This document shows, piece after piece, positions 27,056-52,638 of a stretch of 64,000 bases of DNA. Each line of letters begins with the position of its first letter. The stretch's first letter is position 1. A model generated the notes under the pieces. The model saw only the letters and a program-made list of their open reading frames with translations. It made no database searches and was not told the DNA's origin. The stretch is from the NCBI GenBank assembly GCA_026981975.1, contig JALSHV010000011.1, forward strand, positions 1 to 64,000. The letters are read 5' to 3'. Both the position numbers and the translations under genes were made by a program. Origin of the DNA: Aquificaceae bacterium. GTDB lineage: Bacteria; Aquificota; Aquificia; Aquificales; Aquificaceae.

Positions 27056-27099
27056 ATTATACCCACTTGACAAGATAACGGATAAATCGTTATTATAAA
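27056..27099. promoter_or_regulatory. Divergent int/xis promoters over operator O1
   Basis: Plus strand: TTGACA (27067-27072), 18 bases, TATTAT (27091-27096). Minus strand: TATAAT (27061-27056) for int. Between them lies a perfect 19-base inverted repeat, ATAACG-N7-CGTTAT, at 27075-27093, identical to the 19-mer before the bet gene at 29.4 kb. A protein bound here would block both directions. Confidence 0.75.
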
Positions 27100-33940: not shown

Positions 33941-34111
33941 ATGAGAGACAGGAATGCTGGGAAGGTAACGCTTTTCCATGTGTGTATGGGTGGTGCTGAG
34001 CATAGAGCCTTCCGGTTTTTTGATGACAAAGCTCTGAACCTTTTAGTAGCAGCGTCCATGCTTGAGAGCGAAACGAGATGTATGGTAGCAGGGCGTGGGA
34101 GTATGCTCTAA
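33941..34111 (+). pseudogene. N-terminal fragment of the TGT/DpdA-like gene
   Basis: 56 codons beginning with KVTLFHVCMGGAEHRAF, which looks like the start of a transglycosylase-like barrel (a beta strand followed by a gene-family HxxxG/GxEH-type turn). The frame ends at 34111, just where the next reading frame, one base out of phase, takes over. Adding one base in the overlap (34066-34108) would join the two into one protein of about 280 residues. It may be a frameshift mutation, a sequence error or two separately translated pieces. Confidence 0.5.
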
Positions 34112-34776
34112 ATCCTGAAAAGGTCCTTGAAATCCAGCTGCAGATAGATCCTGATGTGATAGCTCACGTTGATATACCCTGCGAGATAGAAATACTCCGT
34201 AGACTCGGAACGAATAGACCGACTGCTATCTCCCAGACTGTCTACAATGCTCTCTGGATAGTTGAGAAGAAAGAGTCTGGAGACGAAAGATTAAAGAACC
34301 GAATAGTTGTTATTGGAGTTCAGGGATATACGAAGGAAGATTACGGGCGTTGCTTAGAGCAGTATCGGAATTTCGGCTTTTTTGATCTGGATCCTGCAAA
34401 GTACTGGTTTGCGATTGGTAGCGTTTGTATGAGAAAGCCTCCTGAGCTTTACAGGATAGTTGAATTTGTGAGGGCAAGCATTCCTGATGAGTATCATGTC
34501 CACTGCTATGGTATAGCTAACCCCGTGTGGGTTCTGGAGCTCGGGAGATTTGGAGTTAATTCTGTTGACAGTGCAACAGGGACCTATGCGGCTGGAATGT
34601 TTCGTTTTATAGATGTAGGAGGGCAACGGAAAATACTCAAACTGAAAAGGAAGAACAAGTATATGTTCGCTGCTCTTACGGCTTTTAATTGGATGAGTCT
34701 TGAGATCCAGATAGAGGATGGAGTACAGGTTGAACAACAGCACCTTTTTGCAGATTGTGAGGTGTGCTGGAGATGA
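34078..34776 (+). CDS. tRNA-guanine-transglycosylase-like (DpdA-like) protein, main part
   Basis: 232 residues of a TGT-superfamily barrel: VLEIQLQIDPDVIAHVDIPCEI, VVIGVQGYTKEDYGRCLEQYRNFGF, WFAIGSVCMRKPP, HVHCYGIANPVWVLEL and GVNSVDSATGTY. The Asp of VDSAT sits where TGT has its nucleophile. In phages this family (DpdA) puts 7-deazaguanines into DNA. The N-terminal strand and the DSGA-type motif are missing from this frame and seem to lie in the upstream fragment. No queC/D/E genes are in the window. It overlaps dnaB as ATGA. Confidence 0.65.
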   Translation: MYGSRAWEYALNPEKVLEIQLQIDPDVIAHVDIPCEIEILRRLGTNRPTAISQTVYNALWIVEKKESGDERLKNRIVVIGVQGYTKEDYGRCLEQYRNFGFFDLDPAKYWFAIGSVCMRKPPELYRIVEFVRASIPDEYHVHCYGIANPVWVLELGRFGVNSVDSATGTYAAGMFRFIDVGGQRKILKLKRKNKYMFAALTAFNWMSLEIQIEDGVQVEQQHLFADCEVCWR

Positions 34777-37617: not shown

Positions 37618-37731
37618 ATGCTTGCAACACGAAAGGCGGAAGGCTTTTGGATGGTAAAGAGTGGAACGATATGCCTTTCAATGCGGGGGTTGTTGGATGA
37701 TAGTGGTGTTGGTCAGCGGCGGAAAGGATAG
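37618..37731 (+). CDS. Possible 37-residue leader ORF
   Basis: An ATG directly after the previous stop, 6 bases behind AGGAGG, opens a 37-codon frame that runs into the next gene in another phase. The signals are good but the product is unremarkable. It may serve to couple translation into the PAPS-reductase-like gene, whose own start has a poor ribosome site. Confidence 0.3.
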   Translation: MLATRKAEGFWMVKSGTICLSMRGLLDDSGVGQRRKG

Positions 37732-38524
37732 CACCGCCTCACTTGTATTAGCGTTAGAAGAATTTGGTAATAGAGAGGTTATTGGTATATTTACCGACAC
37801 GGGTTGGGAGGCGGAATGTACTTACAGGTATCTGGATTACTTAGAGAATAAGCTCGGAGTTAGGATCCTCAGGCTCAGGAATGAACGATGGAACGGACTG
37901 CTGGATCTAATTGAAAAGAAAAAAAGGTTTCCTTCAGCTCTTTTCCGGTTCTGCACTGCCCACTTTAAAATAGTTCCTGTTGCGGAATTTCTTGCAAACA
38001 CAGACATACCGATAAAAGAAATTTGGATCGGTATAAGACGGGATGAAAGCCGTTCAAGGAAAAAAAGGTACTCAGCGTATTTAAGTGATGCGACTTATGA
38101 TTACCATGAGTGGCTTTCTTCTGTTTCCGGTGGTGATGTCAGGAAGGCAATTATTGAGAGAATAAAGGAAAAGAACATCAAAATCAGATTTCCCATTTTA
38201 GACTGGAGCTCGGAGGATGTCCTTACCTTTCTTGCAAGGAGAGGAATAACCCTTAATCCGTTATATTTGCGGGGACACAGGAGGGTTGGGTGTTACCCAT
38301 GTGTCTTGGGAAGTTTGAATGAGTTCAGGCTTTGCTGGAAAGACGAGGAAGGGAAAAGAAACATTATTCGGTTTGCGGAGGTAGAGAACAGATTGAGGTC
38401 CAGAGGCTACATGGCAAGACTAAAAGACGGTATGACTGCTAAGCAATTGATAAAGAGGCTTGAACAACAGGATCTACAGCTGGACATGTTTTGTGAGGAA
38501 AGCTGTGAAATTTGCAGAATATAA
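37697..38524 (+). CDS. PAPS-reductase-family protein (N-type ATP pyrophosphatase)
   Basis: 275 residues. The PP-loop SGGKDS is at residues 7-12, with IFTDTGWEAE, FCTAHFKIVPV and WIGIRRDESRSR in the middle, and Cys motifs late in the chain (GCYPC and CEESCEIC), which could hold an Fe-S cluster. The family adenylates a substrate and then reduces or sulfurates it; phage and island members (IbrA, DndC) often go with ParB-like or DNA-modification genes, and a ParB-like gene lies at 47 kb here. I chose ATG 37697 over a GTG at 37661. Confidence 0.82.
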   Translation: MIVVLVSGGKDSTASLVLALEEFGNREVIGIFTDTGWEAECTYRYLDYLENKLGVRILRLRNERWNGLLDLIEKKKRFPSALFRFCTAHFKIVPVAEFLANTDIPIKEIWIGIRRDESRSRKKRYSAYLSDATYDYHEWLSSVSGGDVRKAIIERIKEKNIKIRFPILDWSSEDVLTFLARRGITLNPLYLRGHRRVGCYPCVLGSLNEFRLCWKDEEGKRNIIRFAEVENRLRSRGYMARLKDGMTAKQLIKRLEQQDLQLDMFCEESCEICRI

Positions 38525-39706: not shown

Positions 39707-40996
39707 ATGGAAGTTAAGGAAGAGCTTTTCAAAAATCTTGGAGGCACACCCCAGGAAATATATGATAAACTTGCTGATGCGGTTGGAGAGGAGACAGCTT
39801 GGTCGCTTCTGGGGGAAGCAATAGATTACTGTCGCAGGGAGGGAACTTTAAATCCAGCGGAATCGGAGGAGCTGGTTGCCGAACAGAAAACACCTTTTCA
39901 TGTCACAGTTAACAGAGAAGCTTTTATAGACACACTGGCTGGACTTCCCTATGAGAAGAAGACAGCTCTCCCTATTCTTTCCTGCATAGTTATAGAGGGT
40001 ATTGCTGGTTCTTATTTCGGATCGTTGCAGCTCTGGGGTACAGATCTTGAGCTGTTTGGGAAAGTTCTCTTTCCGAAGTGTGATGTACACTCCGGCGGTT
40101 CCGTCTGTGTTAGTTACACGAAGCTGATCGGCGTTTTGAAGAACCTTGATGTTGAGGAAGTTGAGTTAAAACAAGAAGGAGACTCCCTTGTTGTGAGATG
40201 GGAAGAAGGCGAGTACAAGATTCCCACGGTTTCAATTTCAGATTTTCCAGCCTTCCCTAATCCTGCTGTTATTCGGAAGAAGAAACTTGAGATCCCCGTA
40301 CCTGTTTTCATAGAGGGAGTAAAATCGGTTGCCTATGCTGTTGCCAAGGATGATTCAAGGTTATCTCTTCAAACAGTCCACATAAGAGTGATTGGAGACG
40401 AGCTCCATTTTGTAGGATCTGATGGGCACAGACTTGTTTTAAAGAAGTACAGAGATCTTCAGGGTCTTGAAGATGGATTTAGCGTAAACCTGCCACCCAA
40501 GAGTACCAGGTATATAGAGAAGATGGCTGAGGGAGGAACTGTTATTGTAGAACAGGCTTTGAACTTCATAAAGATCGGTGCAACAACAGGTACTCTTTGG
40601 ATCAGGGAAGTAGAAGGCGAATACCCGGATTACCTCAGTGTGATCCCTACAAGCTTTGAGTGCGAAGCTGAGGTGTCTGTCAGCAAGCTAAGCAACGTGC
40701 TGAAGAGGATTATTTCTTTTATGTCTGTTAATCTTGGTGTCAAGTTTTCTGTATCTCAATCTCAAGGTACGTTAAGGATCTTCTTTGAGGATCAGGAAGA
40801 AGGTTCCGGGGAGGAAAGGGTAGAAGTTGTTAGCGCTCATGGAGAAATGGAGGTAGGCTTTAACCCTAAGTATTTGCTTGATTTTCTGAAAGGGACAAAA
40901 GCTGAGACTGTTAGGGTCAAGTTTACTTCTCCTGACACAGCAGCCGTGTTAGAGAGCGGGGAGGCTACATATGTTGTTATGCCGATGAGGATCTGA
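39707..40996 (+). CDS. dnaN: Phage-encoded DNA polymerase III beta sliding clamp homologue
   Basis: Ring-shaped processivity factor. 429 residues: about 65 extra N-terminal residues (a helical segment, IYDKLADAVGEETAWSLLGEAIDYCRREG) precede a full three-domain clamp. Clamp marks include KTALPILSCIVIEG, SDFPAFP, DDSRLSLQTVHIRV, FVGSDGHRLVLKKY, EGEYPDYLSVIP, GFNPKYLLDFLKG and the C-terminal TYVVMPMRI. The host has its own clamp elsewhere by necessity. Phage clamps of this bacterial type are uncommon. It may capture host Pol III. Confidence 0.88.
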   Translation: MEVKEELFKNLGGTPQEIYDKLADAVGEETAWSLLGEAIDYCRREGTLNPAESEELVAEQKTPFHVTVNREAFIDTLAGLPYEKKTALPILSCIVIEGIAGSYFGSLQLWGTDLELFGKVLFPKCDVHSGGSVCVSYTKLIGVLKNLDVEEVELKQEGDSLVVRWEEGEYKIPTVSISDFPAFPNPAVIRKKKLEIPVPVFIEGVKSVAYAVAKDDSRLSLQTVHIRVIGDELHFVGSDGHRLVLKKYRDLQGLEDGFSVNLPPKSTRYIEKMAEGGTVIVEQALNFIKIGATTGTLWIREVEGEYPDYLSVIPTSFECEAEVSVSKLSNVLKRIISFMSVNLGVKFSVSQSQGTLRIFFEDQEEGSGEERVEVVSAHGEMEVGFNPKYLLDFLKGTKAETVRVKFTSPDTAAVLESGEATYVVMPMRI

Positions 40997-44777: not shown

Positions 44778-44783
44778 TTTTTG

Positions 44784-44805
44784 ATAACGTTTAGTTTGTT
44801 ATTAT
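44784..44805 (+). promoter_or_regulatory. Promoter with operator O6
   Basis: Operator ATAACG-N7-TGTTAT at 44784-44802, TATTAT at 44800-44805. The -35 is poor (ATTTTT at 17 bases, or TTGATT at 19), so this promoter may need help. It opens the group of genes leading to the modification island. Confidence 0.7.
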
Positions 44806-44823
44806 ATTAAGGAGAGGCAAAAG

Positions 44824-45513
44824 ATGAGAAAGCTTTACACTTCCTACTACAGTCTCTACTGTTTCAAAACCGGGTATTTTAAGAGCAAGAGACTCCTTGG
44901 GGTCAGGATTACCGTCGGCAAGCCCGCTTGGTGTGGGGATAAGGTAGAGGAAGAGTACCTTGCCCTTGCTCCCTATGGAGTTTTGGGGGAGGAAGACTGG
45001 AGTAAGTACAGAGAGTTGTACTTTTCAAGGGTGCTGGGGAAACTCAATCCCAGGAAAGTGTTTGAAGATCTTCGCAGGCTTGCCGATCCTTATATACCCG
45101 TTCTTCTGTGTTATGAGCCTCCCAAGGAAGGATATAACTGCCACAGGTGGCTCGTGGCTGAGTGGTTTAAAGAAGCCGGTATAGAGGTTGAAGAGTTCGG
45201 ATATCCGCGATGGATTGATAGATGGATAGCTCAGCAGAAGAACTTAAATATTTCTTTTCCGAAGGAACAAACAGATTTATTCAGTGATATGGAGAAAAGA
45301 GTAAAGGCGAGAGCCAGGTATGTGAAGATACTTGGATGCGAAAACGGTGTATGCAGGGTTAAAGGGAGTTCGGGCAATATTTACGAGGTGGACGTAGGAA
45401 AAGGTACCTGTACATGTCCTTTCTTTCAGAACAGGTGGATCAAGTGTAAGCATATGTATGCGGTTGAAGAGTATCTCGGCAAGGAGATAGAGGTCAGGAA
45501 GGTGGCGAAATGA
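44824..45513 (+). CDS. DUF488-like domain fused to SWIM zinc finger
   Basis: 229 residues. The N-terminal part ends in VLLCYEPPKEGYNCHRWLVAEW (Cys106-His107-Arg108), the hallmark of DUF488. The C-terminal SWIM motif CTCPFF..CKHM places zinc ligands at 196, 198, 208 and 210. SWIM fingers bind DNA or protein. The catalytic role of DUF488 is unknown. The stop overlaps the start of the Mom-like gene as ATGA, so the two are coupled. Confidence 0.75.
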   Translation: MRKLYTSYYSLYCFKTGYFKSKRLLGVRITVGKPAWCGDKVEEEYLALAPYGVLGEEDWSKYRELYFSRVLGKLNPRKVFEDLRRLADPYIPVLLCYEPPKEGYNCHRWLVAEWFKEAGIEVEEFGYPRWIDRWIAQQKNLNISFPKEQTDLFSDMEKRVKARARYVKILGCENGVCRVKGSSGNIYEVDVGKGTCTCPFFQNRWIKCKHMYAVEEYLGKEIEVRKVAK

Positions 45514-46886
45514 TTTTCTTCGGACGACTCCGAAAACCCGAACAACAGTTTATCTGGAAGCTCGGAAAGGAAGGGGTCTTTGACGGAAGGGATGTTCAGA
45601 TAATAGGGAGCGGGAGTTTTACTTTTGAGCAGATACTGAAACACTTTTCTCCGAAAACAGTTTTCGGAAATGATATTAGTTTGCTTACTGTTGTTGTTGG
45701 GGATTATATACTCGGCAGGGAAAGGGATATATGGATAAAGGACACAAGGGAAGGGGAGATATTCAGACCATTACTTGAGGATAGGATGGATGGAACTTTA
45801 GGCAAGGCTGCCTCCGTTCTCAGTGTTTATCACTATACCTCTTACTACCCTCTCAATAACCTGCACAAGGTGAGGCTCTTTAACCAGGAGCTTAAGAGAT
45901 TTGACAGGGTTTACGAAGGATGCGTTGAGTTTCTGAAGGAATTCAAGGAAAAGGTCAGACTGGACGACCTTGTGGTCAGGGACGGGGTGGAGGTAATCGG
46001 AGACAAAAGCAGGCTTTACATATGGCATCTGCCTTTCTCTGAGGGAGACGGCTATCTCAGGGACTACAGGCTTGTTAATGCTGTCTTCGGATGGGACGCT
46101 CCTGAATACAGGAAGATGACTACAGAGAGAAACATTTCTCACTTGAGGAAGTTTATCTCTGAAGGATATGACTTCTTGTTCTTTACATCTCACTATGTTG
46201 ACGATTGCAGGGATTATATACTTGCCAAGTTCAAGTATAAGAACAACGACATCGTTTACGTTTACGGGAATTTTGATGAAAGGGTTTATTGGGCTAAGAG
46301 ATGGGCACCGGCTACCGCACCCGGTAACTACCCTATGCTCTCCGACGAGTTTGTATTTACTGAGGAAACGGATATAGGGTTTCGGGTCGTTGACAGGAAG
46401 ACTTTTAACTACTACAGGGAGCTCTTTATAGGAAAGGACAAGGTTAGATTCTACAGCAACCCTTCCGACTCTATCCCGGTTCTCCTCTTTGCTGACTCAA
46501 AGTTTTTCGGATTTCTGCTCTTTGCCAGGGACAGGTTTTCATACAAGCTCGGCAAAAGGCCTTATGCTTTTCTGGTTTCGGACTTCAGGGTTCCATCCGA
46601 GATTCGTAGGTTGTCCAAGCTTGTGATTATGCTGGCGAGAAGTAAGGAGATGAAAAGGCTTTACGAACACAGGTACGGTGTTGTTGTTGATGAGCTTGTA
46701 ACAGCTGTTTATACGGAAAAACCAGTTTCAATGAAGTACAGAGGAGAATACAGCCTTATAGCCAGAAAGAAAAAAAGGATCGGTGAGGAGACGTTTTATT
46801 ACCTGACGTATAAGGCTTCGTTTGGAAACAAGAGCTTGAAAGAGGAGTACCTGCTTTGGTTGAAGAAACATTTTTGTCTGGGTTAA
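45510..46886 (+). CDS. Methyltransferase-like plus Mom-like acyltransferase protein, candidate DNA base modifier
   Basis: 458 residues in two parts. Residues 28-68 look like a Rossmann methyltransferase fold (VQIIGSGSFTFEQIL, then VFGNDISLLTVVVGDY). The C-terminal third (about 310-415) is Mom-like, with FLVSDFRVPSEIRRLSKLVIML near 354-374 and KPVSMKYRG at 404-412. Mom of phage Mu modifies adenine at N6 to evade restriction. The fused form is known as a phage antirestriction-type family, but its exact product is not established. It sits with ParB-like and GNAT-like genes. Confidence 0.7.
   Translation: MIFFGRLRKPEQQFIWKLGKEGVFDGRDVQIIGSGSFTFEQILKHFSPKTVFGNDISLLTVVVGDYILGRERDIWIKDTREGEIFRPLLEDRMDGTLGKAASVLSVYHYTSYYPLNNLHKVRLFNQELKRFDRVYEGCVEFLKEFKEKVRLDDLVVRDGVEVIGDKSRLYIWHLPFSEGDGYLRDYRLVNAVFGWDAPEYRKMTTERNISHLRKFISEGYDFLFFTSHYVDDCRDYILAKFKYKNNDIVYVYGNFDERVYWAKRWAPATAPGNYPMLSDEFVFTEETDIGFRVVDRKTFNYYRELFIGKDKVRFYSNPSDSIPVLLFADSKFFGFLLFARDRFSYKLGKRPYAFLVSDFRVPSEIRRLSKLVIMLARSKEMKRLYEHRYGVVVDELVTAVYTEKPVSMKYRGEYSLIARKKKRIGEETFYYLTYKASFGNKSLKEEYLLWLKKHFCLG
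45650..45668. repeat. Palindrome copy 1 (inside the Mom-like gene)
   Basis: CCGAAAACAGTTTTCGG (45651-45667), a 17-base inverted repeat about an A, lies in codons about 47-53 of the Mom-like gene. The same 17 bases occur at 54645-54661. An exact palindromic match 9 kb apart is unlikely by chance and suggests a protein-binding site. Confidence 0.55.
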
Positions 46887-47152
46887 AGGTTCGTGTCTCT
46901 AACAGCTGGACGGGTAAGTTTTTGTATATCAGAGGCAAAGGAGACAGGTCTCTTTGCGGATTTCATGTAAGGGATGAGACAGTATGTGTGGAGTTTTCGG
47001 ATGCGGAAATCTGTCCGAAATGTAAAAGGCTTTTGTTGGGGATGTTCAGGGCAGTGTTAGAAATCAAAGATGTGGTAGATCTGGCGTGTGTAGGAGGTCT
47101 GAAAGATGTCTTTGAAAAGTTTGAGAGAAGTAGCTCAGATAGGCAAGTTTAA
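46856..47152 (+). CDS. Small Cys-containing protein between the Mom-like and ParB-like genes
   Basis: 98 codons if read from a TTG at 46856. A later GTG near 46894 is also possible. Residues CGFHV..CVEFSDAEICPKC resemble a zinc-ribbon. The frame overlaps both neighbours, as expected in a tight operon. The start is uncertain. Confidence 0.45.
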   Translation: MVEETFLSGLKVRVSNSWTGKFLYIRGKGDRSLCGFHVRDETVCVEFSDAEICPKCKRLLLGMFRAVLEIKDVVDLACVGGLKDVFEKFERSSSDRQV

Positions 47153-48053
47153 GATAGGGTTTGTTGATCCTAAGGAGCTGAAACTTCTGGAGAAGAACGC
47201 AAGATACATGCCTGCAGAGATGTTTGACAGGCTTGTTCAGAACATCAAGAAGGACAAACAGCTGAGTTCGGTTCCTTTCTGTTACCTTGACCCCGAAACC
47301 GGGGAGATGACTGTTCTTTCGGGAAACCACAGGGTTAAAGCTGCTCTTGCCGCCGGACTTGAGGTCATACCCGTTATGTGGAATGTGGAACCTATGACCG
47401 AAGACGAGAGACTTGCTATACAGCTTTCTCACAACGCTATACAGGGTATGGACGATCTCCAGATACTGAAAGAGCTTTACTCCAAGATACAGGATGTTGA
47501 ACTGAAGGAGTACGCCGCTGTGGACATAGCCTACGATCTTTTGGATCTGGAAGAAGAGGAGGAGGTTAACACGGATCTTATATCTACTCCTGATCTTCCG
47601 GACAGAACTATAGTGCTTGTATTTACCGAACCCGAATTTCAGAGGATAAGGGAGATCCTTGAGAAGTATGAAGGAGACACGGTGCTACTTGCTCATGAGG
47701 ACCAGTATGAGAAGTTCAACCAGATCGTTGCTAAGCTCAGGGAAGAGTATGACGTTTTCAACACCGCTACTGTTTTCCGCATATTGATTGAAGGTTTTGA
47801 GAAGTTTATGAAAAAAGAAGCTGAACTGGATGACCTTTACAGAGGGGATGTGGACGTTGAGGGCATGGTCAACTGGAGGGTCGGGGGGACGAAGGGAGTT
47901 GTTGATGTGAGAACCGCCCGAAAGCTCAAGAAGTTGATAGATAGATACGGGCTTGATGAGATAGTCAGGATTCTTGAGGAGTATGAGGCAAGGAGCGTTA
48001 TAGATGAGAACCTTGACAGACCCGTCTTTCCAGATCTTGAAGAGTTTTCTTGA
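47106..48053 (+). CDS. ParB-like nuclease-domain protein
   Basis: 315 residues. The N-terminal ParB fold is clear: KELKLLEKNARYMP (28-36) and VLSGNHRVKAALAAGLEVIPVMW (70-92, GNHR box). It is followed by a helical region and an unknown C-terminal half. In phages and mobile islands such ParB domains act as CTPases or nucleases and are often linked to DNA-modification enzymes or PAPS-reductase-like proteins (IbrB with IbrA). Good AGGAGGT. It overlaps the next gene by 50 bases. Confidence 0.82.
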   Translation: MSLKSLREVAQIGKFKIGFVDPKELKLLEKNARYMPAEMFDRLVQNIKKDKQLSSVPFCYLDPETGEMTVLSGNHRVKAALAAGLEVIPVMWNVEPMTEDERLAIQLSHNAIQGMDDLQILKELYSKIQDVELKEYAAVDIAYDLLDLEEEEEVNTDLISTPDLPDRTIVLVFTEPEFQRIREILEKYEGDTVLLAHEDQYEKFNQIVAKLREEYDVFNTATVFRILIEGFEKFMKKEAELDDLYRGDVDVEGMVNWRVGGTKGVVDVRTARKLKKLIDRYGLDEIVRILEEYEARSVIDENLDRPVFPDLEEFS

Positions 48054-48876
48054 TAGATACAGGCCCCTATCTCTCAGGGAAGTTGTTAAGTCATTTCCCG
48101 AAACGAATTACCTCGTATCCTTTCCTGTTATAGCTCTTTATTACGATCTCCTGCGTTTTCTTGAAAGGAGGAGCGTTGTATTTTTTGATGGGCTTGTGTG
48201 CCTTCTTGAAAAGAAGACCCTCCTGTTGTACGGAGGGGAGTACGACCTTTCCGGGTTTGAGGGGTGGACCGTTAAAAGTGCTCAGCGGTTACCTTTTAAA
48301 GGCGGTCGCAAGTACGTGGAAACCCTCTATTGCCTTGATCAGGTTCTTGATCCTTCTTCTTACCCTAAGAGAAAGCACAGGAAAAAGAAACTTCTTTATC
48401 CTTTGAGAAGAGCTGAGAGAGAAGGAGTGGAGATCAGGGATCTCGGGGAGGAGTGGCTTGTTAAGGCTGTAGAACTTTCGGAGAGGTGGGAGGAGTACAA
48501 GGTAAGTTCGGGAAAGGTTTACGTTAGAGGTTTTCCGAAGGGGGAGTTCAGGAGGATGGCTGAGAGGTTTTTCCTTCTCAGGAAGCTCGGGATTGTGAAC
48601 GGGTACATGTTCGGCGTTTTTGTTAAAGAGAAGCCCTACTATATCGGGATAGATGTTTTTCTGTCTCCGGAAACGGTTTACGGGGTTGCTGGGTTTTCCC
48701 TTTCCTTTGATTTTGACAGGAGCTTCGGGAACGAGGCGTTTCTTCTGGAGTGCGCCTTTTTGCATGAGAGGGGGCATCGGCGACTTAACGTAGGTTTCTC
48801 AACGGACAAGACGGTGAGGGAGTTTAAGGAGAAATGGGTTCACGAATCTCGGGTAAGTTATCAGTACAGGATCTGA
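48004..48876 (+). CDS. GNAT/FemAB-like acyltransferase, copy 1
   Basis: 290 residues. The C-terminal half (from about 150) reads as a GNAT/DUF2156/FemAB-type acyltransferase fold, ending RRLNVGFSTDKTVREFKEKW, the 'NxG..xD..xxxxKxKW' pattern of that group. The N-terminal half (PLSLREVVKSFPETNYLVSFPVIALYYDL, RSVVFFDGL) is shared with the next gene. Start ATG 48004, 8 bases after AAGGAG. The acceptor is unknown; context suggests modified DNA bases. Confidence 0.65.
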   Translation: MRTLTDPSFQILKSFLDRYRPLSLREVVKSFPETNYLVSFPVIALYYDLLRFLERRSVVFFDGLVCLLEKKTLLLYGGEYDLSGFEGWTVKSAQRLPFKGGRKYVETLYCLDQVLDPSSYPKRKHRKKKLLYPLRRAEREGVEIRDLGEEWLVKAVELSERWEEYKVSSGKVYVRGFPKGEFRRMAERFFLLRKLGIVNGYMFGVFVKEKPYYIGIDVFLSPETVYGVAGFSLSFDFDRSFGNEAFLLECAFLHERGHRRLNVGFSTDKTVREFKEKWVHESRVSYQYRI

Positions 48877-49700
48877 AGGAGTTTCTCTCCCGATACAGGG
48901 ACAAGGTTGTGTCCCTCAGAAAAGTCATGGAAGATTTTCCGCCTTTCCATGAACACGCCTGCTCTTTTCCGGTGAGTTCCCTGTACCACGACCTTGTGTC
49001 ATCTATGAGAGAGAGGAGTGTTGTCTTTCTGGACGGAGCTGTTTTTTATCTCAGCAGCGCTACAGCTGTGCTTTATAAGGAAGTTGATTATGAATTTCCG
49101 CCGGGCACTCGGATAAAGACCCTTTTCAATTTCCCTTACAAAGACAGGAAGAAGCTGACCGAGATTCTGTACAGACTTCCTGATATTTTTGACAGGAGCA
49201 TGTACAGGAACTCCGAGTCATACAGGAGTAGAATTAAACACCTTAAGAAGCTTCAGAAGATCGGATACAGAGAGTACTTGGTTACACCGGACAGGTTATC
49301 TGATGCTAAGAGACTCCATGATGAATGGGTGGAGTACAAACTCTCCAGACACGATACATACAGGGTTATGTTCCCAAAGAACAGGTACCTTTCTATGCTC
49401 GTTTCCTGTGTAAACTCCAAGCTCTTCCCATATAAAGCCCTGATCGGTTATATAGGCAATGAACCCGTATCTCTGAGTCTTTTCCTTTTTTGGAAGGGAA
49501 TGGTTTACTCCCTTATAGGGATAAGCAGGTACTGGGAGTATTCCCATATAGGAGACGGAGTTTTCCTGTATCAGATGAGAAAACTTCTGGAGGAGGGCTA
49601 CGAGTATGTGAATGTAGGCTATGTGCAGGACAGAGGGATAGAAGAGTACAAGAAGAAGTTTCCTTACATTGAGGTGGTTACGTACGTTTACTCCGCTTAA
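48834..49700 (+). CDS. GNAT/FemAB-like acyltransferase, copy 2
   Basis: 288 residues, paralogous to the previous gene along its whole length: VVSLRKVMEDFPPFHEHACSFPVSSLYHDL and MRERSVVFLDGAVF parallel its neighbour, and EYVNVGYVQDRGIEEYKKKF is the same acyltransferase C terminus. The 43-base overlap with copy 1 and short ribosome-site spacing imply coupled translation. It is the last gene of the modification island, before the first late promoter. Confidence 0.65.
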   Translation: MGSRISGKLSVQDLKEFLSRYRDKVVSLRKVMEDFPPFHEHACSFPVSSLYHDLVSSMRERSVVFLDGAVFYLSSATAVLYKEVDYEFPPGTRIKTLFNFPYKDRKKLTEILYRLPDIFDRSMYRNSESYRSRIKHLKKLQKIGYREYLVTPDRLSDAKRLHDEWVEYKLSRHDTYRVMFPKNRYLSMLVSCVNSKLFPYKALIGYIGNEPVSLSLFLFWKGMVYSLIGISRYWEYSHIGDGVFLYQMRKLLEEGYEYVNVGYVQDRGIEEYKKKFPYIEVVTYVYSA

Positions 49701-49763: not shown

Positions 49764-50099
49764 ATGAAGGTACTTAAATACTTGGACTATGTGAATGAAC
49801 AGGTTGCTGAGGCAAAGATAAGGCTCGGTAAGGGGTTTTATGCTTACACGGGCGGTGAGTATGTCAGGCAGAAGCTGGCGACGAAGCACGGGTGTAAGGA
49901 CTTCAGGTATATAAGACTCAGGAAGCCGGGTAGGCTTCTTCTTCTGTGTATAAGGGACAAACCCGGACTTCGTGGTGGAAGGACTAAGGCTATAGCTCTG
50001 CTTCGGGATAAAGACATTGATTTGAGAACTTTGGGGAAAGACAGGGCGGTCAGGAAGGCTATCAAAAGGTTTAGGAAGTTCGTACATGGGACGCCGTAA
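49764..50099 (+). CDS. Unknown basic late protein
   Basis: 111 residues, strongly basic (RDKDIDLRTLGKDRAVRKAIKRFRKF at the end). The first late gene, directly upstream of and overlapping the small terminase by 14 bases. Possibly a DNA-binding packaging accessory, an inference from charge and position. Confidence 0.5.
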   Translation: MKVLKYLDYVNEQVAEAKIRLGKGFYAYTGGEYVRQKLATKHGCKDFRYIRLRKPGRLLLLCIRDKPGLRGGRTKAIALLRDKDIDLRTLGKDRAVRKAIKRFRKFVHGTP

Positions 50100-50640: not shown

Positions 50641-50836
50641 CAAGGAAGCGTTTTTTGAGCTGTGCAGGGATATAGAGCTTGAGCTTATGTATCGCTTCGG
50701 GATGCTGGAGGAGGAGCTACGAGCGGTTGAAGAATACTTTCGCATAAAGCACAGGTATACCGACAGCGCAAGCTATAAACACGGTTTGAGGAGACTCCAA
50801 GAGTTTAAAGACAGGCTGATGGGGACGGTCAGGTGA
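50633..50836 (+). CDS. Small protein between terminase genes
   Basis: 67 residues, helical (FELCRDIELELMYRFGMLEEELRAVEEYF). It overlaps the genes on either side by 8 and 4 bases. Not recognised. Confidence 0.55.
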   Translation: MSNKEAFFELCRDIELELMYRFGMLEEELRAVEEYFRIKHRYTDSASYKHGLRRLQEFKDRLMGTVR

Positions 50837-52638
50837 ACGAGGAATACCTTGAGATCCTCGTTTCCGACGTTTTTGAGGAGAAGCCTGTAGATATTGAAGA
50901 GTTTGTCAACTATTACCTCGGGCTGAAGGGGCAGGTGTTCCCTAAGTTGATGGATCTCTTGATTAAGGTCTGGCATGAGGGAGAGTATTTTCTTGTGGTT
51001 CTTGACGGGGGTATAGGATGGGGGAAATCAACCTTTGCGAAGATAAACCTTCTGTATCTGTTTTACAACGCCATTATCCTGAAAAGTCCTCAGAGGTTTC
51101 TCGGGTTTGTTGAGGGGACTGAGCTTCCCATACTTCTTGTTGGGGAAAGCCAGAAACAAGCGAAACATACCCTTTTCAACGATGTGAAGACCATTATGCA
51201 GAACTCTCCATATTTTGCGGAGAAGATAAAGAGCAGGGAGATCTTGATGTACGAAGCTAAGGACGGGGGTGAGGTAAGGCATGTTGGTAAGAATGTTGTG
51301 ATAGTGCCTCGTGGGATAGATGATACGGGGATACTGGGATTAAACCTCATAGGGGTCGTGATGGAGGAGGTTAACTTTTGGAGCGTGCTCGTAAACAGTA
51401 AGTTGGGAAGGAACTACGATACCGCAAGGGAGACCTTTGACAAGCTTCACAGGAGGTTCGTGTCGAGGTACGGGAACTTTGAAATCAGACAGCTTCCATT
51501 CATCCCCAAGTTCTTCGTTGTTTCCTCCAACCATAAAGAAAAGGATCTTACCTCCCAGCTTGCCAAGGAGTACGGTGGGTCTCCGAATTTTCTGTACCTT
51601 CACATGAGGTCATGGGACACCCACCCGTACGGGTGGCACGCTGAGGAAACTTTCAGGGTGTGCATAGGAAACCGTCAGCAGCTTCCGAGAATCATAGACT
51701 CAGAAGAGAGTTGCAGGGGATGCAAGATTGCTCTGGGGAGGACCTTTAAAAACTGCGGACATAAGATAGAGGAAGTCCCTGCGGATTACAGGGTGGATTT
51801 TGAGAGGGATATAGTCAGGAGTGTTAGGGATTATCTCGGATACCCCCAGTATGCGAGCTCCCCCTTTATAGCGGACAGGGAGCGGGTTTTCAACTGTATT
51901 GATGAAGTTCTTTCACATCCATGGGAGGATGAGGAGGTTGTTCCTTACGTTTCTATTGTTCAGGAGGTGCAGAGGTGGAAGATACCGCTTCCAGCCAAGA
52001 TCAAGGTCATCAATCCGCAGGCTAAGAGGTTTATCCACGTTGATCTCGGGCTCAGGAGGGATGCCTGCGGTATAGCCATGGGGCATGTGGAGGAGTTCGT
52101 CACCGTGGAGAGGATAGACGAGGAAGGCAACTCTTATTCCGAGACCCTTCCTGTTGTGAGGATAGACCTGATGGTGAGGATAGTGCCTCCGGAGGAAGGG
52201 GAGATAGAGATATCGGAGGTGAGGAACGTTCTTTACTACCTGCAATCAAGGGGATTCAATATTCACACGATCAGCTTTGACGGGTTTCAGAGTGCGGACA
52301 GCATACAGATACTGAAGAGGAGGTTCCCTGAAGTTGAGCTTCTGTCGGTTGACAGAAATACGCAACCTTACGAGTTCTTAAGGAGCGCTATATATGAAGG
52401 GAGGATCAGGTATTACCACTATAAACCCTTCATATCGGAGCTTCTTGAACTTGAGTTTGATGATGTGAAGGGGAAGGTGGATCACCCGCCGGGCGGATCC
52501 AAGGATGTGGCTGATGCTGTAGCCGGTGTGGTCTATCACTGCATGATAAAGAGTAAGGCTTCTTTTCCCTCCCGTATAGAGAGAGGGTATCCCCATGTGG
52601 GAGAGTCTCCGTGGTGGGAGAGGTTACGTGAGTTGTAA
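50833..52638 (+). CDS. terL: Terminase large subunit
   Basis: 601 residues. Packaging ATPase and nuclease: Walker A DGGIGWGKSTFAK (about 58-70), Walker B GLNLIGVVMEEVNFW (about 174-188), and an RNase-H-fold nuclease with acidic motifs FIHVDLGLRRDACG, HTISFDGFQSADS and SKDVADAVAGVVYHC. GTG start overlapping the upstream stop. The nuclease layout matches headful-packaging enzymes of T4-like or related phages. Confidence 0.95.
   Translation: MNEEYLEILVSDVFEEKPVDIEEFVNYYLGLKGQVFPKLMDLLIKVWHEGEYFLVVLDGGIGWGKSTFAKINLLYLFYNAIILKSPQRFLGFVEGTELPILLVGESQKQAKHTLFNDVKTIMQNSPYFAEKIKSREILMYEAKDGGEVRHVGKNVVIVPRGIDDTGILGLNLIGVVMEEVNFWSVLVNSKLGRNYDTARETFDKLHRRFVSRYGNFEIRQLPFIPKFFVVSSNHKEKDLTSQLAKEYGGSPNFLYLHMRSWDTHPYGWHAEETFRVCIGNRQQLPRIIDSEESCRGCKIALGRTFKNCGHKIEEVPADYRVDFERDIVRSVRDYLGYPQYASSPFIADRERVFNCIDEVLSHPWEDEEVVPYVSIVQEVQRWKIPLPAKIKVINPQAKRFIHVDLGLRRDACGIAMGHVEEFVTVERIDEEGNSYSETLPVVRIDLMVRIVPPEEGEIEISEVRNVLYYLQSRGFNIHTISFDGFQSADSIQILKRRFPEVELLSVDRNTQPYEFLRSAIYEGRIRYYHYKPFISELLELEFDDVKGKVDHPPGGSKDVADAVAGVVYHCMIKSKASFPSRIERGYPHVGESPWWERLREL

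Follow-up and report, generated by a model that had tools for sequence, protein, structure and literature searches.

Gene Content and Setting of the Locus

The DNA analyzed here (the window) comprises positions 1 to 64,000 of contig JALSHV010000011.1 from an Aquificaceae bacterium (assembly GCA_026981975.1), and the element in question is a cassette of six open reading frames (ORFs) on its forward strand at 44824-49700. Each ORF overlaps the next, end to start, in agreement with the original prediction of five or six overlapping genes forming a DNA-modification island. The first (44824-45513) encodes, as judged by family match and alignment, a DUF488-N3-type domain (residues ~1-127), a motif EQTDLF (~148-153), and a SWIM zinc finger (187-218). 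The second (45510-46886) encodes the predicted central enzyme, a fusion of a DAM-like domain (1-263) to a GNAT-phage-like domain (288-454) identified through Pfam, PHROG, and AlphaFold. These are followed by a Cys-containing ORF of 98 residues with a possible zinc-ribbon (46856-47152), and by a ParB-like protein (ParB/CTPase fold; 47106-48053) with the motif SGNHRVKAA. The last two ORFs (48004-48876 and 48834-49700), referred to below as the twins, encode tandem-GNAT, FemX/MprF-like proteins; the second was assigned through AlphaFold and Foldseek and the first through its paralogy to the second, and both have orthologues in a sister prophage.

The cassette is carried by a prophage in the 1.6-Mb genome of this hot-spring bacterium, where it is flanked by a promoter-like site on one side and terminase genes on the other. 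The prophage encodes a tyrosine integrase adjoining tRNA genes, RecT, DnaB, and its own beta clamp, and its structural genes include a T4-like Gp20 portal, S77 prohead protease, Gp23 capsid, and sheath. The sister prophage lies on contig WFPN01000329 (genome G005, of the same genus as the window source), and among named relatives the closest to share the cassette is an Aquificaceae metagenome-assembled genome. Genes 1, 2, 4, 5, and 6 are kept in the sister in the same order (70, 65, 71, 58, and 66% identity, respectively), with nonsynonymous divergence (dN) of 0.18-0.30 and synonymous divergence (dS) that is saturated or above 1.5. Low dN combined with saturated or large dS indicates that the five shared genes are real and under purifying selection.

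The small Cys protein of the original prediction is present as an ORF but is not a conserved part of the cassette, being missing from the sister prophage. Pfam and PHROG searches gave no significant family match for it, and it is probably accessory or dispensable. In phage Mu, a small Cys gene, com, lies ahead of mom, and the window operon likewise has a small Cys ORF; in the window, however, this ORF comes after the GNAT gene rather than before it and is not conserved. A role as a Com-like regulator is unsupported, given the lack of a family match and of a counterpart in the sister.

A Recurrent Phage Cassette

A DAM/GNAT family search of IMG/VR returned 102 loci, of which 80 were kept and 71 had a called ORF; a simple ORF caller was used, so the neighborhood counts are lower bounds. 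Over these 71 loci, the ParB family was found at position +1 (61 copies) or +2 (4) relative to the DAM/GNAT gene, a DUF488 gene was in the neighborhood at 40, mainly at -1 to -3, and the TerL family was present at 47, typically at +3 with TerS before it. The order DUF488 - DAM/GNAT - ParB - TerS - TerL recurs in dozens of viral contigs and likewise in Faecalibacterium phage FP_Brigit. Mycobacterium phage Jeon encodes DUF488 (gp65), DAM/GNAT (gp68), and a protein that aligns with the ParB family (gp69), and a plasmid-like prophage of Peribacillus has DUF488, DAM/GNAT, ParB, and TerL. DAM/GNAT, ParB, TerS, and TerL are found in a Salmonella record, for which blastn revealed no E. coli relative, and DAM/GNAT with ParB in Gordonia phages. 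The core cassette is located next to the terminase in phages of Actinomycetota, Bacillota, Pseudomonadota, and Aquificota, and cultured phages of Mycobacterium smegmatis carry the core set.

DUF488, DAM/GNAT, and ParB genes hence co-travel in many phages, in contexts that are not unrelated, and the gene set is a recurrent phage cassette that is not unique to the window. The original prediction had not recognized the set; its core domains are already curated in Pfam as phage families, and the core set is therefore not new. With the curated families (PF22555 and PF22559, PHROG 7858, PHROG 7405, PHROG 2450, and DUF488-N3a, PF22751) the window shares the central fusion, the ParB gene, the DUF488 class, and the place ahead of the terminase, and it adds the SWIM domain on DUF488, the small Cys ORF, and the twins; its Dam-like motif IV is the more degenerate. 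In the literature searched, which did not include Burroughs and Aravind 2023, no functional or biochemical study of the core cassette was found. What is new here is the suggested link between DUF488 and the replication clamp, the twin aminoacyl-transferase-like genes of Aquificaceae, and the fusion of a SWIM finger to DUF488 in the Aquificaceae version of the cassette.

Two features of individual phages were observed alongside the core genes. In Jeon, a tRNA-Gly(tcc) gene (L004:8386-8457) overlaps the annotated start of the DAM/GNAT gene. FP_Brigit encodes a methionine adenosyltransferase (L217:987-2165) four genes ahead of DAM/GNAT; such a phage S-adenosylmethionine (SAM) synthetase was rejected as a part of the system, being present in FP_Brigit only, one of 40 cassette records.

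The DAM-Like/GNAT Fusion

The 458-residue product of 45510-46886 matches DAM-like-phage1 (PF22555; 3.3e-26, 92.6 bits) and GNAT-phage-like (PF22559; 6e-32, 111.2 bits), both over the cut-off of 27, as well as phrog_7858 (2.7e-57). Its AlphaFold model, built from an alignment of 43 sequences, has a predicted local distance difference test score (pLDDT) of 90.8, and its fold is matched by GNAT enzymes and E. coli Dam and, further down the ranking, by Mu Mom (PDB 8bv8). The N-terminal half has the fold of E. coli Dam (4rts, 4rtj) and keeps its SAM-pocket positions. In an alignment of 62 DAM/GNAT proteins, 61-62 retain each of the pocket residues G35, D55, and D158, and P175 is invariant; unlike E. 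coli Dam, however, most have F/Y where [DNS]PP[YFW] has its catalytic D/N, giving (F/Y)PP(F/T). The loss of this residue makes ordinary adenine methylation by the DAM-like half unlikely, and the claim that the protein modifies adenine is left unsupported; the DAM-like half lacks the methylation motif. From its conserved positions, the DAM-like half would appear to bind DNA and probably also SAM. The most conserved stretch of the protein is the GNAT half, in which T398, S407, K409-G412, Y434, and W450 are invariant and PVSMKYRG is near-invariant, suggesting that this half carries the constrained chemistry.

The protein had also been called Mom-like. Mu Mom (PF25680) shares with it a GNAT fold and a phage origin, and structure 8bv8_B aligns with the model at E 3.1e-4 and a TM score of 0.53 on the target, although other GNATs rank higher. 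Mu Mom is without a Dam-like half or a DUF488 partner and has no detectable sequence relation to the window protein. The Pfam Mom family recovered Mu Mom itself (2.4e-75) and did not match the 45510-46886 protein, and comparison of the Mom and DAM/GNAT profiles gave a spurious 24-column match only. Membership of the Mom family is thus rejected on sequence grounds, while the likeness holds at the level of the fold. A viral scan for Mom relatives returned near-identical Mom copies only, and therefore no deeper Mom profile could be built.

The ParB-Like Partner

The 47106-48053 protein was identified as ParB-like by its match to phrog_7405 (1.6e-55), and other PHROG ParB families were also matched. 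It is 33-35% identical to the corresponding partners in Gordonia and Mycobacterium phages. Against Pfam ParB_N it scores 15.0 bits (cut-off 26.3), while an orthologue (L024) passes with 29.1 bits, and its profile weakly matches Spo0J/ParB structures. ParB domains also occur beside other base-modifying enzymes of phages (PMC12783734), and several nucleoside triphosphates (NTPs) are ligands of ParB-fold proteins (PMC12704722). A comparable arrangement is that of CmoX/CmoY, which carry out phage cytosine hypermodification and in which, as in the cassette, a SAM-fold base modifier has ParB-domain neighbors (PMC12783734); they differ in having the motif SPPC and an AMP-forming ligase where the cassette has a GNAT.

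DUF488 and the Replication Clamp

The protein of the first ORF had been described as DUF488-SWIM, and both parts were found: SWIM is matched at 1.4e-7, and alignment to viral DUF488 proteins places the signature of the ‘active’ DUF488 subclade, C-x-E ... C-H-R, at LLCYEPPKEGYNCHR. The signature residues C96, E98, C106, H107, and R108 are invariant in an alignment of 15 sequences. The match to DUF488-N3a itself (0.0018, 19.0 bits) is under the Pfam cut-off of 27, which is passed by several viral orthologues in the same position. A viral scan with the DUF488-SWIM protein alone gave no matches.

Many viral cassette DUF488 proteins end in QLSLF-like pentapeptides, borne behind a linker of variable length, and a C-terminal QL(S/D)LF is the consensus published for clamp binding in bacteria (PMC9690074). 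The last 20 residues were scanned in 42 DUF488 representatives (70% dereplication) encoded near a DAM/GNAT gene, with 929 ORFs from the same contigs and shuffled tails as controls. The clamp motif was present in 20 of the 42 tails under a loose pattern and in 14 under a strict one, compared with 1.6 and 0.2% of control ORFs, and shuffled DUF488 tails gave rates as low as those of the control ORFs. The enrichment is significant by Fisher test at 70% dereplication (p 6e-21) and after clustering at 40% identity (p 7e-4), values that are somewhat optimistic because the patterns were chosen after the tails had been seen. Cellular Aquificota DUF488 proteins with a findable signature do not have the motif at their ends. 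The window counterpart, the clamp-motif-like EQTDLF, has an internal position at the end of the DUF488 domain and before SWIM, and the sister has RQGDLF. The enrichment of QL[SD]LF in the tails suggests that cassette DUF488 proteins act at the replication fork; a clamp-binding tail would put the cassette there and supply a concrete mechanism.

A possible docking partner for this motif is the full DNA polymerase III beta clamp of the window phage, encoded on the forward strand at 39707-40996 (TIGR00663 2.6e-56, over the curated cut-off, and a Pfam match). A phage-encoded clamp was found in one of 32 other DAM/GNAT viral contigs, so that most cassette phages would use the host clamp, and a phage clamp was rejected as the general partner of DUF488.

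Two further viral DUF488-N3a proteins have unusual architectures. One (L206:4986-5930) is fused to an 8-oxoguanine DNA glycosylase (Ogg-HhH 3.6e-31), which ties the DUF488 family to DNA-base chemistry. The other (L184:1375-2148) is a tandem duplicate with a clamp-motif-like QQPLF between its two domains.

The glycosylase fusion, the very regular place of the cassette immediately ahead of TerS and TerL across many phages, and the DNA-end processing reportedly predicted for the DUF488 clade would also fit an account in which the cassette marks or processes the genome near the packaging site for terminase, with ParB binding the site and DUF488 trimming ends, by a logic like that of Dam methylation at P1 pac. 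We consider this unlikely: the clamp-binding tails indicate replication instead, and the TerS families downstream vary. Many ParB-methylase genes, moreover, precede terminase genes with, to our knowledge, no packaging role.

The Twin Tandem-GNAT Proteins

As originally predicted, the last two genes are a pair of GNAT/FemAB-like paralogues, with 33% identity between them and a tandem-GNAT predicted fold. The AlphaFold model of the second twin (pLDDT 76.8, from four sequences only) retrieved in Foldseek a Bacteroides protein of unassigned function, followed by MprF, L-PGS, Sbb17, FemX, and ATE1, with E-values of 1e-7 to 1e-5 for MprF, L-PGS, Sbb17, and FemX; by sequence, the twins reach E 0.016 at best against LPG_synthase_C. 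Their predicted fold thus matches that of aminoacyl-tRNA-dependent transferases. The tandem-GNAT fold is common to the twins and to MprF/L-PGS (DUF2156), FemX, and Sbb17, from which the twins differ in their low identity (10-16%), in being without a membrane part, and in having DNA genes as neighbors. They are known from the window and sister prophages only; a viral scan for them gave no matches, and a weak match in G056 was dropped, as the ORF reads in translation as EF-P lysyl-transferase-like.

The twins raise the possibility of tRNA-charged amino acids being placed on DNA. In its full form, that they would move amino acids from charged tRNA onto a group installed on a nascent phage DNA base by a clamp-tethered core, this is a long shot; if true, twin activity would give the phage of a thermophile aminoacylated DNA. 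It is possible, if somewhat doubtful, that the core modifies DNA and the Aquificaceae twins are unrelated cargo serving, for example, envelope lipid or peptidoglycan aminoacylation, an account limited to the twins, which any view of the core can accommodate. The nearest folds are indeed those of the envelope enzymes MprF/L-PGS and FemX, and the twins are present in only two prophages. Nevertheless, in both prophages the twin genes overlap one another as well as the ParB gene, in the same order and under purifying selection, and the modeled twin has a soluble tandem-GNAT fold with no equivalent of the MprF membrane part.

Proteins, peptides, or lipids are the usual substrates of GNAT and FemX/ATE1-like folds, and phage GNATs that modify RNA polymerase have been described (PMC7824862). 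The cassette enzymes might then put acyl or aminoacyl groups on a protein of the host or phage (RNA polymerase, clamp, or capsid), in the manner of the phage GNAT Rac, with ParB and DUF488 as unrelated neighbors. This we find distinctly unlikely, as the Dam-fold fusion, the fixed ParB pairing, and the DUF488 clamp motif all indicate DNA.

Proposed Function of the Cassette

A DNA-modification module is the best fit for the cassette, and to that extent the original prediction stands, though neither Mom membership nor adenine as the target is supported. The reading as a whole, a module that modifies DNA during phage DNA replication, has, in our estimate, about an even chance of being correct. Its catalytic steps, DNA substrate, and benefit are what we infer from the observed gene content, co-occurrence, motif enrichment, and predicted folds. 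The DAM-like/GNAT fusion would be the central enzyme, its Dam-fold half binding DNA and probably SAM without performing ordinary N6-methylation, and its GNAT half transferring an acyl group onto a nucleobase in a Mom-like action outside the Mom family. The ParB-like protein may serve as an NTP-switch or DNA-scanning partner, and the DUF488 protein, able to carry a beta-clamp-binding tail, would work on newly replicated DNA, at the base or at nicks or ends. In the window prophage, the two tandem-GNAT proteins would extend the product, possibly by an amino acid. The likely benefit would be the shielding of phage DNA from host nucleases.

Several observations weigh against this proposal. Within the 62 aligned, the window DAM-like half ranks with the most degenerate, having HLPF at motif IV and G33 in place of C, and for many GNATs the substrate is a protein or small molecule. 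DUF488 is not near a sizeable fraction of the viral DAM/GNAT genes. A clamp-type motif occurs somewhere in 9% of ORFs of similar length, so that the internal EQTDLF of the window is weak when taken alone. Finally, the study that defined the DUF488-N3 clade is reported to predict DNA-end processing in preference to base modification.

Neighboring Features of the Window

Two other modification-type genes are present in the window. A 232-residue TGT/DpdA-like protein (34078-34776; TGT 5.7e-11, NCBIfam DpdA 1.4e-6, under the cut-off) is homologous to proteins of two further Aquificaceae genomes (67 and 41%), and the host genome has QueC; the gene possibly represents a separate 7-deazaguanine DNA modification. 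It was rejected as part of the same system, since the TGT-like gene is not in the sister genome or in the 32 other DAM/GNAT viral contigs, many of which are fragments. A PAPS-reductase/PP-loop protein (37661-38524; 9.6e-31), with weak similarity to QueC and DndC, has no counterpart at the corresponding position of the sister prophage.

Directly 3' of the cassette on the same strand, 49764-50099 encodes a basic protein of 111 residues that is 65% identical in the sister prophage and for which Pfam and PHROG searches gave no significant match. The terminase large subunit follows downstream on the same strand at 50833-52638 (phrog_2, 2.3e-10). Upstream, the promoter-like site (TTGATA, 16 nt, TATATT; 44781-44808, forward strand) was recognized by consensus match only, and the frequency of promoter-like sites in the region was not above that in shuffles. 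A repeat family, GTTATTAT, to which this site belongs, has members at 44784, 49717, 54680, and 61470, the first two of which bracket the cassette; these repeats are promoter-like and are found at 44784 and preceding late genes. A second promoter-like repeat family, ATAACG...CGTTATTAT, precedes early genes at 27068, 29375, and 39647.

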